From Myxococcota bacterium (GTDB lineage: Bacteria > Myxococcota_A > UBA796 > UBA9615 > JAKLKC01), in assembly GCA_023150875.1 (NCBI GenBank), contig JAKLKC010000029.1, positions 1-64,000 on the forward strand: a DNA stretch of 64,000 nt, read 5' to 3'. Positions within the stretch are counted from its first letter, which is position 1, and the number at the start of each line of letters is the position of its first letter. Of this stretch, positions 1-7,541 are shown piece by piece. A program made the translations under genes and the position numbers. The notes beneath the pieces were generated by a model. That model saw only the letters and a program-made list of their open reading frames with translations. It did no database searches and had not been told where the DNA came from.

Positions 1-77
1 ACGGGTAGGGGGAGGGGGCATGTGGGGATGGCAGTATGCGTTGACTCCCGCAGAGGCGCAGGGGCGCAGAGGGTGAC
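1..77. repeat. 77-bp direct repeat, copy 1 (mate at 7387-7463)
   Basis: Bases 1-77 are identical to 7387-7463 and diverge at the next base (C at 78, G at 7464). In the second copy the first eight bases are the last codons and TAG stop of preA, so the window opens on what looks like the 3' end of a second preA-type gene. The left end of this copy is cut off by the window edge, so the true repeat may be longer. It is a direct repeat with no inverted ends, so it is not a transposon terminus. Confidence 0.9.
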
Positions 78-230
78 CGAGAATGAGATTGGAACGGGGG
101 TGCTCGAACCGGCGATAGCAGTGCATTCCGGATCTCAAGCCTGTGGAGCGGGTGAGTGCTGCCCACCAGTAGCAGGTGCATGCCTACCTCGGACAGACAC
201 GCAGCGAGCTTGGGTACCAGTAGAACGTCG

Positions 231-550
231 GTGAAGACGGCATGGGGACCCGTGGTGCTCGAAGCCCTCGGGGTGGCGGTGGGCATCAACTCCCCCTGCC
301 GGACGCGGGCGCGAGCCCTGAGCTACGACAGCCACAAGCCCGTCCGCCGGCACGTCGAGAGACTCGTCATCCTCGTCGCCTCGGGCGGCGAGTGCCTGGA
401 GGACCTGAACAGCCTCCTGGGAGCCGGGGGCTGGGCCGCCTGCTCGGACTCGTACCGTCCACCCCCAGCCGGGCCAAGGACGTCCTCTGCCGCCTTCACC
501 AGGTCGAGGACGGACGACCCCTCACCGACGACGACCCCTTCCACCGTACC
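231..550 (+). pseudogene. Degraded IS1380-like transposase N-terminal fragment
   Basis: Two reading frames together resemble the N-terminal part of IS1380-family transposases. From 231 one frame gives a WGPVVLEALGV segment and later an ASGGECLEDLNSLLG segment. At about 425-430 the similarity moves to another frame, giving GRLLGLVPSTPSRAKDVL and then RLHQVEDGRPLTDDDPF up to about 550. There is no credible start and no DDE catalytic core. This is a frameshifted 5' remnant, and the family call comes from remembered motif layout rather than a search. Confidence 0.45.
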
Positions 551-1075
551 TGCCGCCTCGTTAGCACGGCCGCGCACTCCTGCTCAAGGTCTCCCTCAGC
601 CCGCCCATGGCCACCGTCCTGGCCTCGGCGCTGCGAACGTTTCTCGCCCTGGCGACCCCACGCCGGTTGGAGCTACCTGCTCCAGCCTGACTCCCCTCGT
701 GTCCGCGTCGCCCCCTGCTCAACCGCCGCCCCTGGCGGCAGAGGTCCAGGTCCGCCCGAACGCGGGTGGCCGGGCCTTCGGATCGCCCCACGACCGGCGT
801 CGAGAACCCCTCGGCCCGCCCGAACCGCCCCTTGCACCCCCTCCGAGCTCCGTCAAGCTTCGGCTTGCCCCCAAGCTGTGTTTGAAGCCACATGCGGCGA
901 GCCCCAGGCCGAGTCGTCGACGCGGAGCGCCCGACGATTCGGGGACGGGCATGCGCGCATGCAAACTATCCTGTCGGAAAGCATCGGGATCGTCTTGACG
1001 GCCCATGGATGGGTCTGTACGCTCCGACTCGGGCATCGTCGTTGGCGGGTGCAGCCGAGGAAGTGAGGCTACGGC
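551..1075. other. No gene recognised
   Basis: The open frames here (for example the extension of the transposase frames to about 1066) have compositions without domains, ribosome binding sites or codon bias like the flanking genes. The stretch probably holds decayed DNA behind the transposase remnant and the promoter region of the gene at 1076. I see no RNA gene or clear repeat in it. Confidence 0.5.
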
Positions 1076-1843
1076 ATGATCCTATTCCGATGGATCCCAC
1101 GTCCACCTGTTGGCGGAGCCAGCGGCCGACGTCAGGGCGGGGCCCAATGGGCACGGGCGCTCACTGCGGCAGGTGTGATGGCGTCAACCACCTTCACAGG
1201 TACGGACGCGTCCGGCGCCAGGCCCGAGGACGAGGTCGGAGACCCCGGACTGGAGCAGCTGGAGGGCCTGAGCCCTGAGGCGGAGGCGGAAGGCGACGGA
1301 CAGCCGGAGTGCGAGCTCGGCATGAGTGTCGACGATGGATTGAGAGCCGATCTCGCCATCGACGAGCATGGCGCGTACGAGCCCTGGGTGCAGCTGTTTC
1401 CCGCTGCGGTCGGGGGCCTCGAGTACTCCGTCGAGCTGCGCGTCGAACAGGTGGGTGCCGTGCTGGCCTCCTGGCTGATCGGTCCGGAGTTTGTCGAGCC
1501 CTGGGAAACCGCTTGGGTGTCCCTGAACTTTGAGGAGCACGGCGGTATCGCCCTCGCCGATCCCGACGTGGTGAGTGAACTCCACGTCAAGGTCGTCGCG
1601 ACTGATCCCGACGCGGGCACCGAGCTCGCCTACTACGTCCTCGACACGATGTACCTGATCATCGACGAGGCGTACGCTTCCATTCGGCTTGTCGACGTCG
1701 AGGAGGCCGCAATGGTCGCACGCGGCGGTGTGGTCTCCGAGTCCCTGCGTGCCGAGCTGGAGAGGGCGGGAGCGGACCTAGACGATGACGAAACCAGCCG
1801 CCTCGGTCACATCCGATTCGCGCGGGCTCTTCAGATCGATTGA
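1076..1843 (+). CDS. Hypothetical acidic protein, first gene of an accessory three-gene cassette
   Basis: A 255-residue protein of unknown function. The ATG at 1076 follows a purine-rich GAGGAAGTGAGG stretch. Residues about 25-50 include a weakly hydrophobic stretch (ALTAAGVMASTTFTG) that might be a poor signal sequence. The rest is strongly acidic with alternating beta-like segments, and no catalytic motif is visible. It lies 65 bp upstream of the HExxH protein gene on the same strand and is probably co-transcribed with it. Codon use is less GC-extreme than in the core genes further right, as for the whole 1-6 kb block. The start is uncertain. Confidence 0.55.
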   Translation: MILFRWIPRPPVGGASGRRQGGAQWARALTAAGVMASTTFTGTDASGARPEDEVGDPGLEQLEGLSPEAEAEGDGQPECELGMSVDDGLRADLAIDEHGAYEPWVQLFPAAVGGLEYSVELRVEQVGAVLASWLIGPEFVEPWETAWVSLNFEEHGGIALADPDVVSELHVKVVATDPDAGTELAYYVLDTMYLIIDEAYASIRLVDVEEAAMVARGGVVSESLRAELERAGADLDDDETSRLGHIRFARALQID

Positions 1844-1908
1844 GATATTCGCGACAACCCGATCAATGCGGTTCACTGACCTCACATGGACCCGGAAAGG
1901 CGCGCTGC

Positions 1909-3279
1909 ATGAAACAGACACAAGTCGTAGGCGTCCTGCTCGCCCTCCTCTGCTTGGGGACCACTTTCGACGCCTCCGCATCAGGCACGATCCCCATGCA
2001 GTTCTGCTTCCGCTACAACATCGACTACGATGACGATGATGCCAGCATCGGCGATGACTACTTCATCGAAGTCGACGCCGGCCCGGGAAGTGCGCCGAAG
2101 GCGAGGGGATTGAAGGTCCGCGTGGAGGACCTCGACGCGGATCCCGCTGATCCCCATCCGTTCGACGGATACGCCTCCTACAATGGCGTCTCGCCCGGTT
2201 GCACGCCCGTCCTTGACCTCGCCGTGGACCATCAGATCCTCATCACCACATGGTCGGAGGCGCTGGTCGGAGGCAACGTCATCACAGTTCGAGAGAGTCA
2301 GTTCCACTCAGTGACGTTCCGCGACGAGCACGCATTCCAGGAGACCGTCAACCAAGGCTGGCCGAACCCCTACGTGTTGCATGCCAATCACGTGAAAGAG
2401 CGGCATTGGCGCATCTTGGCGGCGGCGGCGTTCGCGCAGTATCGGGAGCGTGGGGGGCTTTCCGGCAGGACCTACTTCATCTACGACGAGGCGTGCCCCT
2501 TCGCCGGGGGAAGCTGTAGCCTGGACGGAAGCGTGTGGCTCGACCCGGCCGGGTCTGAGCCCTACAACCGTCACAAGTACGGGATCGTGCACGAGTTAGG
2601 CCATGCCATGCTCTATCAAACGGGAGCCGGACAGTGGTTTGTGGACTTCCTAGCCCCAACCGGGGTGTGCGATGCTGGCCGTGCCGACGACGAGGGCTGG
2701 CGGGAGCATTCCAAGGAGTACCAAAGCGCTGCGGCTAGCGAGGGTTATGCGAACTTCTACGCGGCGCTGGTGTTCAACGACATCCTCGACAGCGACTGCC
2801 GGATGGAGGAGATATACTCGCCGAACTGGGACAATGATCCAGCGACTCCGGCGGATCGAGCGTTCAACTGCACCGGAGACCCCGACCCGATTGACCAGCC
2901 GACGTCAGCGACAGACTACCTCGGAACGATGTGCGACGCCCCGACGTTGGCGATGGGGACCGCGCTCGACTGGCAGCGATTCCTCTGGGACGCATCGAAG
3001 GGTCCGGATTCGCTAGCATTTGTGGATCTCGTCGATATCTGGGTGGGCTCTACACCGAGTACCTGGTGTCCGAACGGCTGGCCAGTATTCCCACCCCCTC
3101 CGCCATTCCTTCCCCCAAGCCCTCCACCGCCACCTCCCTGGGCACCCTGCTGGCCCTCGGATAGGATGATCTTCTACGCCCACCCCCTGAACGGCGGTCC
3201 GCTTACGGTGGATGAGTACTACGCATTCACAGATGCGATGGAGCTGCACGGGGTGCATACGGGATGGATTCCGATGTGA
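1909..3279 (+). CDS. Secreted HExxH metalloprotease-like protein
   Basis: A 456-residue protein. The ATG at 1909 is preceded by GGAAAGG about nine bases upstream, and the N-terminus (MKQTQVVGVLLALLCLG, then ASAS) is a signal peptide. A zinc-binding HELGH motif lies at residues 228-232, followed by a helix (AMLYQTG), as in zincin metallopeptidases. Downstream are a SEGYANFYAAL segment, which could supply the third ligand, several cysteine pairs typical of exported proteins, and a proline-rich stretch near residues 390-420. I cannot assign a peptidase family. The next gene starts inside the last codons (16-nt overlap), implying translational coupling. Protease activity is inferred from the motif only. 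Confidence 0.7.
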   Translation: MKQTQVVGVLLALLCLGTTFDASASGTIPMQFCFRYNIDYDDDDASIGDDYFIEVDAGPGSAPKARGLKVRVEDLDADPADPHPFDGYASYNGVSPGCTPVLDLAVDHQILITTWSEALVGGNVITVRESQFHSVTFRDEHAFQETVNQGWPNPYVLHANHVKERHWRILAAAAFAQYRERGGLSGRTYFIYDEACPFAGGSCSLDGSVWLDPAGSEPYNRHKYGIVHELGHAMLYQTGAGQWFVDFLAPTGVCDAGRADDEGWREHSKEYQSAAASEGYANFYAALVFNDILDSDCRMEEIYSPNWDNDPATPADRAFNCTGDPDPIDQPTSATDYLGTMCDAPTLAMGTALDWQRFLWDASKGPDSLAFVDLVDIWVGSTPSTWCPNGWPVFPPPPPFLPPSPPPPPPWAPCWPSDRMIFYAHPLNGGPLTVDEYYAFTDAMELHGVHTGWIPM

Positions 3280-4217
3280 CCGGTCCCGGGCCGGCACGGA
3301 GCACCGCCGGTGCAACGAGCACCGCTTGGCTGGCGGCCACATGCGCGCTGCTGCTCGGCGAGGTGGCTCACACATCACCACGCCCGCCCCTGACCGCCGC
3401 GCCTGCCATCAGTGCCACTGCGAGTCTCCCAGGCGCCCGGCCTCAACCGCCTGCGGCGCCTGCGGCGCCTGTGGAGGCCACTCCTGATTCCCCCGCATCG
3501 CGGATGCCCCCGGTCGGCGAGATAGGCATTAGCTTCGAGGACATGTACGGCCCGTCGCTCGCCCCGAGTTGGCGGGCCATGCTCGGTGGGCGGGTGGGGC
3601 GTCGCGTAGTCCTGGCCGTCGAAGGAGCGGTCGCACCCTGGGCATTGCACCGTCGCGGTACGGAACTCACGGTGGTTCCGTGGCCCAGCCTCATGCGTGC
3701 GCTGTTCGTAGCCCGTTTCGGGCATGGGGACGCGCATCGTCCTCAGTGGGTGGGCGAGGTCGGTGTCGGCGGAGCGTGGATGGGGTCGCCGTGGGCCGGA
3801 CTCGCTTCCACGGAAGCCAGCGGCGCCTGGACCCTCAACTCATACTTCCTCGCCCGGGCGTCGGTGAGGCTGGCTGCACCTGCGGCTCGCGGCACACGAT
3901 TCGGGCCGATGCTGCGCGGCTCGGTGCTTCCGGGTGGCAGTCCTCGAGTACCCTTTCTCGTCTGGCACGCGCAGGTCGGCATCGTCTTCGAGGCGCCCCT
4001 GAGTGCCCCGGGCGTGGTGCGTTTCGAGTTCCTCGCGGGCGCCGCGGGACATTCAGGCGTCCATGCGGACGAGGATGGAAACGTGCTGCCTGGGTCTGGT
4101 GCGGCAACGGACGGGTATGGCGCGCAGGCGGGTCCCCGTCCGGCGCTCCACGGCTCGATCGCGTTCGACTTCGGAGCCTCACCCCGTGGTGATCATGGGG
4201 TGGACGGGACGCGCTGA
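3264..4217 (+). CDS. Hypothetical exported protein, possibly barrel-like
   Basis: A 317-residue protein whose start overlaps the HExxH gene by 16 nt. The N-terminus has a hydrophobic stretch (TAWLAATCALLLGEVA) followed by an Ala/Pro-rich linker to about residue 75. The rest alternates short hydrophobic and aromatic strands with glycine (GEIGISFEDMYG, VGEVGVGGAWMG, RASVRLAAPA, VWHAQVGIVFEAP), resembling small outer-membrane beta-barrels, but no final aromatic residue marks a classical barrel end. No family is recognised. The overlap suggests it works with, or anchors, the HExxH protein. Confidence 0.55.
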   Translation: MDSDVTGPGPARSTAGATSTAWLAATCALLLGEVAHTSPRPPLTAAPAISATASLPGARPQPPAAPAAPVEATPDSPASRMPPVGEIGISFEDMYGPSLAPSWRAMLGGRVGRRVVLAVEGAVAPWALHRRGTELTVVPWPSLMRALFVARFGHGDAHRPQWVGEVGVGGAWMGSPWAGLASTEASGAWTLNSYFLARASVRLAAPAARGTRFGPMLRGSVLPGGSPRVPFLVWHAQVGIVFEAPLSAPGVVRFEFLAGAAGHSGVHADEDGNVLPGSGAATDGYGAQAGPRPALHGSIAFDFGASPRGDHGVDGTR

Positions 4218-4284
4218 ATTCCGTCGCGCCTTTCCACCGGCAGGCCGGACTCGCTCCGCTGCCGTCCCGCCTCGGGCAGGGGCC

Positions 4285-5955
4285 CTACATCGCGTTGCCG
4301 AGCTTGACGTAAACCGCCCCTCCGACCTCCGCTTCAAAGGGCGCGCCGACCGCGAGATCGTCCCGCCCGTCCCCGTCGACGTCCCCTGACCAGGCGACCG
4401 ACCATCCCGTATAGGAGTCCACCATCCCTGTATCGAATCGAGCGTGCGCCTCGGTCAAGTACCGGACCCCGACTTCGATGGGGCCGTACAGGAGGTAGGC
4501 GGCTCCGATCTGCGACGAGAGCCCGTCGGTGCGGAAGCCCGGAGCACCAATCACTACGTCGTTCCATCCGTCGCCGTCGAAGTCTCCGGATCCAGCGACC
4601 GCGTTCCCCGCGTTGTGAGACGTGCCCTCGCCATAAAGGACCACTGCGGCGTCCTCCAGCGAACGGGATCCGTCGAATGGCCCAAGCGCGACGTAAATGG
4701 CACCCGTGGAGGCGCCTTCCGGGGCGCCGACGGCACCGACAATGAGGTCGGCGACACCGTCGCCATCCTGGTCACCCGCGCATGCAATGGACTGACCGGC
4801 GAAGTCGTTGCCGAGTTCGCCCGTGAGGATGGCCGGAGCGCTGGCGAGGTCGAACACTCCGGGTTCGATCGGCCCATGGATTATGTAGACGCGCCCAGCG
4901 CGGGGAGCGTCGCCCTGCGCCCCTGGCGCGCCGATGACGATGTCGTCGATGCCGTCCCCGTTGAGATCGACGTCGCCCAGCAATGACGCCCCAACCGCCT
5001 CCGCCGCCGACGCGGGCTGGAAGATCACGTCAGCGTCGGATAGGGAGAGGGTCCCCTCCACGGGGCCGAAGACGACGTACACGCCCCCGGACGCAGTCGA
5101 CGGGACCGCGCGGTTCTCGGCCCCCACCAAGAGGTCTTCGTATCCGTCCCCGTTGACGTCTCCCGCCGCAGCGACGGTTGAGCCCGCAAGCTCACCGTCC
5201 GCTACCCCCATGAGGGTGGCGTCCGCCTCTGCCGCTCCCAAGACCCCCGACCGAGGCCCCCGGAAGAGATAGGCGGCGCCTGGTCGTGCCGTTCCGTTCC
5301 GGGCTTCGGGTGCGCCGACCAGCACGTCATCGAAGCCGTCCCCGTCGATGTCGCCCCCCGCGGCGACGGCGGCCCCGAAACGATCACCATCGGCTGCACC
5401 GGTAGCCGAAGCAAGGGCCACATCCGCTCCGAGTGGCCCGTCGCCTATCGCCAGCGGAGACGCCAAGATGTAGGCGGTGCCTGGTGCGTTGGCGCCCCCG
5501 CCGCCGGGGCTGCCGACCACCAGATCGGGCTGGCCATCCCCGTCGTAGTCTCCCGCCTTCGCGATCGAGAGCCCCGCCTCGGCCCCCTCTCGTTCCCCGC
5601 AGAGGCGTACCTCGACGTCTCCGGCGCCGAAGAGCCCCTCGACCCGACAAGGCGAGCCCGCCCCATCGCAGTTGTTGTCGATGCCGTCGAGGCACACCTC
5701 GGAGGCGCCGGGGTTCACCGAGACATCCTGGTCGTCGCAGTCCTCTGGCGACTGCCAGCCGTCCCCGTCGGCATCCTCCGTTGCGATGTCGTCGTCCGGC
5801 TGCGAGTCATCGTCGGTCGCGTCGTCATCGGTCACGTCGTCGTCGTGCTCGGGGGTGTCGTCATCGCTCGCCGGTGGCGGGTCGGACCGCGCGGGATCGC
5901 ATCCCAGCAGGGCCGCAACACAGGCCGCCGCAGCCCAGGTGAACGACCTGCTCAT
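4285..5955 (-). CDS. FG-GAP repeat lipoprotein with MopE-type metal-binding motif
   Basis: A 556-residue lipoprotein. The ATG at 5955 has GGAGG seven bases upstream, and a lipobox (ALLGC) sits at about residues 15-19. An Asp-rich linker (residues about 30-62) is followed by a MopE-like motif (DADGDGW, CDD, CLDGIDNNCDG). Seven FG-GAP/integrin-type calcium loops of the GD-x-(D/N)GDG-xxD type then fill the protein, enough for one seven-bladed beta-propeller. The product is probably surface-exposed and calcium-stabilised; the ligand is unknown. It is convergent with the cassette at 1076-4217. Such Asp-rich FG-GAP lipoproteins are common in Myxococcota-type genomes. Confidence 0.85.
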   Translation of the reverse strand: MSRSFTWAAAACVAALLGCDPARSDPPPASDDDTPEHDDDVTDDDATDDDSQPDDDIATEDADGDGWQSPEDCDDQDVSVNPGASEVCLDGIDNNCDGAGSPCRVEGLFGAGDVEVRLCGEREGAEAGLSIAKAGDYDGDGQPDLVVGSPGGGGANAPGTAYILASPLAIGDGPLGADVALASATGAADGDRFGAAVAAGGDIDGDGFDDVLVGAPEARNGTARPGAAYLFRGPRSGVLGAAEADATLMGVADGELAGSTVAAAGDVNGDGYEDLLVGAENRAVPSTASGGVYVVFGPVEGTLSLSDADVIFQPASAAEAVGASLLGDVDLNGDGIDDIVIGAPGAQGDAPRAGRVYIIHGPIEPGVFDLASAPAILTGELGNDFAGQSIACAGDQDGDGVADLIVGAVGAPEGASTGAIYVALGPFDGSRSLEDAAVVLYGEGTSHNAGNAVAGSGDFDGDGWNDVVIGAPGFRTDGLSSQIGAAYLLYGPIEVGVRYLTEAHARFDTGMVDSYTGWSVAWSGDVDGDGRDDLAVGAPFEAEVGGAVYVKLGNAM

Positions 5956-6053
5956 CCGACAACCTCCATGAGTTTCGAACCGACCTCGCGGGCGCAGGAG
6001 AACTGCGTCCGGTCCTTCGATGCAGACATCATTGTCCCGACCATCGTGCACCA

Positions 6054-7394
6054 GTGAATGCTCCGAAGCGAGAGACTACCTCCGATGGGGCGCCAGGCGC
6101 CAGTCCTACCCCAAGCGGTCGCGTCGTGCCTGGTCCGCTCACCAAGAAAGTCCCGACCCCGAACCCCTTCTGGCTGGCGAGCGCGCCCCCGACCAACTCG
6201 GGGGACCAGGTGAAGCGCGCCTTCGACGCCGGCTGGGGCGGGGCGGTGTGGAAGGCCCTGGGCCAGCCGATCCAGAACGTGTCCAGCCGCTTCGGCTCCA
6301 CGAACTACTTCGCGGGCCGGCACGTGGGCTTCAACAACATCGAGCTGATCACGGACCGCCCCCTGGAGGCGAACTTCCGGGAGATCGCCGAGGTGAAGCG
6401 CCTCTACCCGAAGAACGCGGTGATCGCGTCCCTGATGGTGGAGAGCCGCGCCGAGTGGCGAGACATCATCCGCCGCGCCATCGACGCGGGGGCGGACGGG
6501 CTGGAGCTGAACTTCGGCTGTCCCCACGGCATGTGCGAGCGGGGCATGGGCTCGGCGGTGGGCCAGGAGCCCAAGGTGAACGAGGAGATCACCTCCTGGG
6601 CGGTGGACTACAGCACGGTGCCGGTGCTGGTGAAGCTGACGCCCAACGTGAGCGACATCGTCCCCCACGGCCTGGCCGCGAAGCGCGGCGGCGCCCACGG
6701 CGTGTCCCTCATCAACACCATCAAGAGCGTGATCGGGGTCGACATCGACCGCTTCGTGCCCCTGCCCCGGGTGGGGGATCTGGCCACCAACGGCGGCTAC
6801 TGCGGCGCGGCGGTGAAGCCCATCGCCCTCCACATGGTGGCGGCCCTGGCCCGCCACCCGGACTTCCGCCTCCCCCTCTCGGGGATCGGCGGGATCGCCA
6901 CCTGGCGGGACGCCGTGGAGTTCATGCTCCTGGGCTCGGGCACGGTTCAGGTGTGCACGGAGGTGATGCTCCGAGGCTACGGCATCGTGGGCGACCTGAT
7001 CGAGGGCCTGACGGAGTACATGCGGACCCACGGCTTCCAGCGCCTGGACGACTTCGTGGGCCGGGCGGTCCCCGCCTTCCGGGAGTGGGGCGAGCTGGAC
7101 CTGAACTACGAGGTGGTGGCGAAGATCGACGCCACCACCTGCATCGGCTGCCAGCGCTGCCTCGTCGCCTGCATGGACGGCGCCCACCAGTGCATCCACC
7201 CCGATCCCTCGGGCTCCCGGGTGCCGGTGGTGGACGAGTCGGAGTGCGTGGGCTGCAACTTGTGTCAGATCGTGTGTCCGGTGGACGGGTGTGTCACCAT
7301 GGAGCAGGTGGCGAACGGGTACGCGCCGGCGACCTGGAGGGAGCACGAGGCGGCGGGGGTGTTGCTGAGGCCGAAGAAGGGGTCCCACGGGTAG
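6054..7394 (+). CDS. preA: PreA-like NAD-dependent dihydropyrimidine dehydrogenase subunit
   Basis: The family reduces uracil and thymine to their dihydro forms together with PreT. From residue about 36 the protein matches PreA: NPFWLASAPPTNS, the FMN-barrel segments LELNFGCPHG and LVKLTPN, ISGIGG-type LSGIGGIATW, and two C-terminal 4Fe-4S motifs (CIGCQRCLVAC and CVGCNLCQIVCPVDGC). The first 35 residues are not PreA-like and no ribosome binding site precedes the GTG at 6054. The GTG at 6126 would give the normal family length but also lacks one. No preT or hydantoinase gene is nearby. The native 5' end was probably lost at a recombination point, and expression is doubtful. Confidence 0.85.
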   Translation: MNAPKRETTSDGAPGASPTPSGRVVPGPLTKKVPTPNPFWLASAPPTNSGDQVKRAFDAGWGGAVWKALGQPIQNVSSRFGSTNYFAGRHVGFNNIELITDRPLEANFREIAEVKRLYPKNAVIASLMVESRAEWRDIIRRAIDAGADGLELNFGCPHGMCERGMGSAVGQEPKVNEEITSWAVDYSTVPVLVKLTPNVSDIVPHGLAAKRGGAHGVSLINTIKSVIGVDIDRFVPLPRVGDLATNGGYCGAAVKPIALHMVAALARHPDFRLPLSGIGGIATWRDAVEFMLLGSGTVQVCTEVMLRGYGIVGDLIEGLTEYMRTHGFQRLDDFVGRAVPAFREWGELDLNYEVVAKIDATTCIGCQRCLVACMDGAHQCIHPDPSGSRVPVVDESECVGCNLCQIVCPVDGCVTMEQVANGYAPATWREHEAAGVLLRPKKGSHG

Positions 7395-7463
7395 GGGGAG
7401 GGGGCATGTGGGGATGGCAGTATGCGTTGACTCCCGCAGAGGCGCAGGGGCGCAGAGGGTGAC
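7387..7463. repeat. 77-bp direct repeat, copy 2, spanning the preA stop
   Basis: This copy is identical to 1-77. It covers the last two codons and stop of preA (7387-7394) and 69 bases of 3' flank. The sequences that follow the two copies are unrelated: a transposase remnant after the first, an immunity gene after the second. The same flank therefore joins two different accessory segments. Confidence 0.9.
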
Positions 7464-7541
7464 GGAAAGCGATACTTCCGTGTCGAGGTACGAGCTGGAG
7501 TCCTGCAAGCCCGTTTGTCCGCTTGGCGTGACGACCGTCTG

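Follow-up and report, generated by a model that had tools for sequence, protein, structure and literature searches.

Results

Gene content of the inserted block

The stretch analysed here (the window) is the leading 64 kb of C102, an 81,329-bp contig from a Myxococcota genome of 6.92 Mb in 180 contigs, and it carries near its left end an inserted block with a gene, B, for a predicted secreted-type zinc protease. Three open reading frames (ORFs) lie on the + strand at 1076-1843 (gene A), 1840-3279 (gene B, with a likely start at 1909) and 3264-4217 (ORF-C), the latter two sharing 16 nt, as described in an earlier sequence-only reading. That reading took the three for one accessory cassette; A and B stood, with homologues in the same order, while the third ORF found no support from homologues, codon usage or length. 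None of the three had a convincing match in Pfam or NCBIfam. The block spans about 81 to 6150 and thus continues rightward beyond the three-ORF segment first noted. Below, L013-L016 are paralogous cassettes of the window's genome and other L numbers are loci read for comparison. Coordinates are given in Table 1.

The zinc protease gene B

The N terminus of B is signal-peptide-like (judged by eye), and the modelled catalytic fold begins near residue 31, directly after this stretch. Searches with B gave no Pfam family at E values up to 1. For ten B members the best Pfam matches were weak and none was M4 or M36 (M64 at 0.069, DUF6055 at 0.03), NCBIfam gave the same outcome, and PDB sequence searches did not recognise the protein. 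The AlphaFold2 (AF2) model of B (predicted TM-score, pTM, 0.79; predicted local distance difference test, pLDDT, 72.6) matched the M36 protease 7qfy (Z score 16.8, 279 of 456 residues aligned over positions 34-454, root-mean-square deviation 4.3), aureolysin (Z 16.7) and thermolysin (Z 16.2 and below). The M36/M4 range was 12.4-16.8, and M1 aminopeptidases scored 9.4 and below. The matched span, about residues 31-454, is predicted to form a thermolysin-like two-domain fold, and the top Foldseek match was thermolysin (E 1.8e-4).

Residues H228, E229, H232, E270, E278, D354 and W355 were invariant in the 17-row alignment A4, and HExxH was absent only from the second B gene of L016 (B2) in alignments A1 and A3. 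The search for a third zinc ligand, which the sequence-only reading had suggested, points to E278: this residue was invariant in 21/21 sequences of A3 and sits inside the modelled helix 269-289, which follows HExxH. Its invariance and this position suggest that it may be the ligand.

M4 thermolysin-like peptidases and M36 fungalysins are gluzincins of clan MA. B resembles them in its predicted fold, in HExxH and in the candidate glutamate on the following helix, but differs in its sequence (identity near 10%, and no match to M4 or M36 in Pfam or NCBIfam) and in the FTP/PepSY propeptide, for which a Pfam search of ten members each of A and B gave no match. The spacing from the start of HExxH to the glutamate is also different, being 45-72 residues (33 of 37 rows, those where both simple motifs were found) as against about 24 in thermolysin. 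These results predict that B is a zincin of thermolysin fold that lacks the customary propeptide and lies outside the described sequence families searched. The sequence-only reading of B as a secreted, zincin-like HELGH protein of no recognised family was supported by these predictions, and no housekeeping family was found to claim the protein. In the open-access literature we found no description of this protease family.

Of 377 genomes searched in the phylum, 36 held the B family by profile, the window's own among them; none of the six other genomes of the same order did. In named genomes, 23 contigs or loci had it, one of them in Nannocystis pusilla. The relatives in named genomes surfaced only with the profile scan; a scan with the single protein gave none. 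All relatives belonged to one phylum or to metagenome-assembled genomes (MAGs) labelled otherwise. The idea that B is a phage or plasmid gene was rejected, as B had no match in phage, plasmid and viral-contig collections. Six B genes, forming two groups in the tree, are present in the window's genome: one each in the window, L013, L014 and L015, and a pair at L016. Two of these are unusual in sequence. The L013 gene (L013:4394-5810) lies in two frames, split at about 5170-5230 by either a real break or a sequencing error. L016 B2 (L016:13314-14378) is a tandem paralogue in which HExxH is replaced by RQLGL with the rest conserved; it runs into the contig end and is a possible pseudo-enzyme.

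The partner gene A

An A-profile search of the genome gave five members, all directly upstream of a B gene, and L016 B2 was without an A gene. The protein is acidic, as the sequence-only reading had it, and homologues in the same order support the gene. In the AF2 model of A (whole-model pLDDT 59.6), a core of residues 88-216 is mostly confident and forms a beta sandwich; its fold matches were generic immunoglobulin-like (Ig-like) folds with Z up to 8.3, naming no family. A is therefore modelled as an Ig-like protein, and its gene is tied to B. Structure prediction, proposed earlier for all three products, covered A and B.

We surveyed the upstream side of 46 distinct B loci, drawn from a larger match list after removal of same-contig copies and assigned to classes partly by eye. 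An A-profile match preceded B at 14 loci and a small gene without such a match at 11; B carried an extra N-terminal domain at 10, and 11 were without an upstream partner or unclear. In other Myxococcota the Ig-like domain upstream of B was either encoded separately or fused N-terminally to B, and the fused domains matched distant separate A domains (96.4%, E 1e-9). Because the fused domain matches distant A types only, we dropped a Rosetta-stone argument for gene A of the window. The gene that precedes B in Nannocystis contains both FG-GAP and RTX repeats and ends in an Ig-like stretch (the latter by eye). B homologues thus do come with a flanking gene.

The third gene

The sequence-only reading proposed the third ORF as a possible barrel protein and surface partner of the protease. 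ORF-C had no homologue but itself in 71 genomes of the class and none in plasmid records. Its coding score was negative, its GC content by codon position was nearly flat (0.75/0.64/0.73), and an open frame as long arose in 107/1000 dinucleotide shuffles. Taken by itself the codon score says little against ORF-C, because A and B have the same low third-position GC. With homologue, codon signal and length significance all wanting, we found no support for ORF-C as a genuine barrel partner.

In the relatives, the gene downstream of B usually encodes a lipoprotein, as judged by eye from its lipobox, and the lipoprotein type tracks the B clade. The ten-row tree clade of the window (support 80/88, not strong) mostly has the FG-GAP/MopE type: in 7 rows it follows B in the same orientation, in the window it is inverted, and it was not seen at L033 and L138. 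The corresponding gene of the window (product P0004) carries both domain kinds, like other FG-GAP/MopE-motif lipoproteins (PF01839 at E 2.4e-52, PF11617 at E 8.5e-12), but differs from them as the recurrent neighbour of an undescribed protease family. From this neighbourhood, P0004 is likely the third partner in the window.

Codon usage

GC content at third codon positions (GC3) was ranked against 1374 called genes (median 0.958), a gene set called with a host codon model that favours high GC3. Genes A and B, ORF-C and the FG-GAP gene fell at percentiles 0.0-0.4, and the adjacent preA-like copy was at percentile 78. Elsewhere, the L013 cassette was at 0.0-0.5, those of L014-L016 at 1.3-6.1 and L016 B2 at 11.5. 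Given this codon usage and the host-gene duplication on both sides, the window segment looks acquired, in agreement with the mobile-looking segment of the sequence-only reading.

Flanking copies of host genes

A further copy of the preA-like gene is cut by the end of contig C9, and C9:1-182(-) matches window 6151-6332 at 98%. The C9 copy adjoins preT-like and other pyrimidine-breakdown-like genes (names by eye; DHO_dh/Fer4 domains by Pfam). We infer that the remainder of the left copy lies across the contig break, with its 5' part on C9.

Flanking direct repeats were found at three of the four testable cassettes. The repeat of the window, which the contig start truncates, measures 80 bp (98.8%); those of L013 and L015 measure 981+97 bp (95/91%) and 621 bp (95%). 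The cassette is flanked by complete and 5'-truncated copies of a glycosyltransferase gene at L013 and of a long gene without a Pfam match at L015. All three exceed 80 bp at 90%. Among 1000 random 3-kb intervals outside the cassettes, drawn from 2.1 Mb of the same genome, flanking direct repeats at 80% reached 40 bp in 53, 80 bp in 12 and 300 bp in 6; at 90%, one interval had a repeat of 80 bp and one a repeat of 300 bp. A narrower control in the first 0.9 Mb (906 kb) gave 2/400 at 80 bp and 0/400 at 300 bp. The wider control lifted the background, yet the three cassettes are well above it; the scar is rarer than chance neighbours, though not unique, because 12 of the 1000 random intervals reach 80 bp at 80%. 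The insert junctions were abrupt, and no common junction motif was seen by eye at three loci. Between copies, the ratio of nonsynonymous to synonymous differences (pN/pS) was 0.35, 0.32 and 0.39 in the three longest pairs and 1.18, 0.15 and 0.11 in three short ones. Differences are thus mostly synonymous in the longest pairs but not in one short pair, a pattern that may point to donor alleles.

Seven direct pairs of at least 300 bp at 80% were present in the 2.1 Mb: two at cassettes, two overlapping on C158, which are probably paralogous FG-GAP genes, and one each on C88, C95 and C99. The C88 repeat (C88:36311-46535) is 1123 bp long at 80%, and its copies are 8 kb apart. On C95 (C95:48641-59806), an insert encoding a 1905-aa protein and a lipoprotein lies between an intact cation-ATPase-like gene (by eye) and its 5' part (470 bp, 91%). 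An AbiEi/AbiEii toxin-antitoxin pair at L198:9429-12320 (C99:49429-52320) is flanked by copies of a methyltransferase gene (by eye arsM-like), intact on one side and a truncated 3' copy on the other. A further insert (C95:40848-43099, L194) stands between an intact MOSC-like gene (by eye) and its 3' part (139 bp, 91%).

Other sequence in the block

No toxin, immunity or secretion gene was identified in the inserted block, though no examination of toxicity was made, and PADLOC models gave no match to the four window proteins at E 0.01. Four translations from 1-1066 had no Pfam match. Two ORFs within 1-1075 had negative coding scores, and the ORF length there was matched in 83/1000 shuffles. A remnant of an insertion sequence (IS)-type transposase at 1-1000, suggested by raw translation, was ruled against by the absence of Pfam support. 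A dispersed short repeat, at most 107 bp long, occupies positions 837-943; its relatives (75-88%) lie at C107, C162:1-75, C108:1-75 and C111, two of them at contig starts.

Table 1. Features of the window and of the B loci read for comparison.
Feature	Position or loci	Strand	Basis
Left copy of preA-like gene, 3' end and 72 nt past the stop	1..80	+	Direct repeat of 7387-7466, 98.75% identical
Start of inserted block, no recognised gene	81..1075	no strand	Pfam, coding-score and shuffle tests negative
Gene A, small acidic protein, Ig-like by model	1076..1843 (alternative starts 1175 or 1178)	+	Five family copies in genome; AF2 model
Gene B, predicted secreted-type thermolysin-fold zinc protease, unclassified family	1909..3279	+	N terminus; alignments A1, A3, A4; fold match
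HELGH zinc-binding motif of B, residues 228-232	2590..2604	+	Conservation in alignments
E278 of B (motif E[GA]xA[HN]), candidate for the third zinc ligand	2740..2742	+	Conservation
ORF-C, doubtful ORF, possible barrel protein	3264..4217	+	No homologue; coding score and length test negative
FG-GAP/MopE-motif lipoprotein, likely true third partner	4285..5955	-	Pfam; same-strand counterparts downstream of B in related loci
Right preA-like copy, 5'-truncated (predicted coding sequence 6126-7394)	6151..7466	+	Junction alignment; DHO_dh, Fer4; intact 5' end on contig C9
FG-GAP/MopE type downstream of B, nine loci	L013, L026, L027, L028, L031, L032, L035, L124 (MopE part only), L127		
Small unknown lipoprotein after B	L014, L015, L016		
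FGE-sulfatase-domain protein after B, eight loci	L050 (= L125), L051, L130, L132, L133, L134, L139, L140		
Gene after B with weak leucine-rich repeat (LRR) match below cut-off	L137		
No or unclear upstream partner, 11 loci	L016 B2, L031, L032, L037, L045, L047, L049, L052, L055, L128, L138		

Discussion

The explanation that we favour, and regard as probable, is an acquired accessory cassette that encodes a surface-associated proteolytic complex of the B protease, its A partner and the FG-GAP lipoprotein, and that entered via one-sided recombination. A and B would be exported by Sec, B would be active as a protease, and A would bind or present it; the FG-GAP lipoprotein would hold the complex at the cell surface, where foreign or environmental protein would be cut. 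Predation by secreted enzymes is a known habit of the phylum, and a predation role for B would fit; this role, like the interbacterial one that the sequence-only reading also raised, is a conjecture. For the entry, we envisage incoming DNA that carried a gene G followed by the cassette, and one-sided homologous recombination, either homology-facilitated illegitimate recombination or a Campbell-type crossover, would have produced the order G - cassette - truncated G. The duplicated host genes at the window, L013 and L015 are as one-sided recombination expects; other duplication routes yield the same.

Several points weigh against this explanation. The full length of the window's left repeat is inferred, as a contig break cuts through it, and L014 has no flanking repeat. 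Host-gene duplications also enclose unrelated inserts, and the scar is thus not specific to the cassette. Most loci outside the window's genome lack long flanking repeats; direct repeats of at least 40 bp at 80% were found at 4 of 22 (L026, L045, L048, L051), and some of the loci read had short flanks. The FG-GAP gene is inverted in the window relative to its relatives, and FG-GAP repeats are very abundant in the genome (1086 first-look candidates, of which 150 were scored and 150/150 were over the cut-off); a single FG-GAP neighbour would for that reason mean little, and the evidence is the repeated same-strand neighbourhood in other genomes. Window-type A matched the distant separate A domains marginally (27.4%) and the fused domains not at all by profile (1%), so that the place of A across the family is partly positional.

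In another explanation, A would substitute for the missing pro-domain of B, as a foldase or inhibitor acting in trans at the window and in cis in the fused lineages. Thermolysin-type enzymes normally have an FTP/PepSY propeptide, and B is without one, its modelled fold following the signal-peptide-like stretch; A is encoded immediately upstream, and the Ig-like domain fused to B in other clades occupies the pro-domain position. We nevertheless consider this unlikely, as the model of A is an Ig-like sandwich (generic Z 8.3), which speaks against an FTP-like pro-domain by fold, and window-type A is unmatched to the fused domain. We know of no Ig-like sandwich that serves as a pro-domain.

It is rather improbable that these are ordinary, vertically inherited exoprotease genes whose odd codon usage comes from secretion or low expression. 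The two tree groups of the six B copies are consistent with expansion within the lineage, and the relatives found are confined to one phylum or to MAGs labelled otherwise. However, B is present in none of the six other genomes of the same order and in few of the phylum, its GC3 lies in the lowest 0.5% beside a host-like flank, and host-gene duplications surround three cassettes.

The split of the window's left copy by a contig break and the fragmentation of the genome might suggest that the flanking repeats are an assembly artefact from a strain mixture in a metagenome bin. We consider this very improbable: the copies at L013 and L015 both lie within one contig and are about 5% apart, and such repeats are rare elsewhere. 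An element driven by a transposase or integrase with very long target duplications would account for the identical geometry that recurs with different genes, but is highly improbable, since neither enzyme was seen in the block (ORF list, Pfam scans), no junction motif was shared, and repeats of 0.6-1.3 kb far exceed the target duplications known to us.

We return to one-sided recombination. A report on Vibrio type VI secretion system (T6SS) effector-immunity arrays describes homology-facilitated illegitimate recombination in which displaced gene ends are left behind (PMC5361080), and another indicates that transformation can produce merodiploids in S. pneumoniae (PMC3784515). Shared with these cases is the anchoring of incoming genes by homology on one side, with the old gene end displaced or the region duplicated. 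The window's genome appears to differ in its residue, a long partial host-gene copy, and in the setting beside protease cassettes and an AbiE pair; the mechanism here would be analogous. In the open-access literature we found no paper on such insertion scars.

What is new in this study is the undescribed protease family; the kind of accessory cassette that carries B is known. Our study thereby adds to Myxococcota a protease family that is uncharacterised and comes with partner genes tied to it, and gives a checkable sequence scar for the entry of integrase-free accessory genes into a genome. We tentatively extend the explanation: members of Myxococcota may hold swappable surface-protease cassettes, each with the thermolysin-fold family, an Ig-like partner and a clade-specific lipoprotein, which arrive from relatives by one-sided recombination. 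The same integrase-free process may deliver defence and other accessory genes, leaving scars of intact gene - insert - partial gene that could be listed by a repeat scan. Such a scan of complete genomes could show whether one-sided events are a general route.

Repeats of other kinds were seen at further B loci. One of 392 bp at 78% lies at L134, a locus rich in repeats, and one of 40 bp at L139. In genome G025, an inverted 175-bp repeat at 95% (L029:1-174 and 3491-3665), cut by the contig start, lies around an A-B-lipoprotein cassette.

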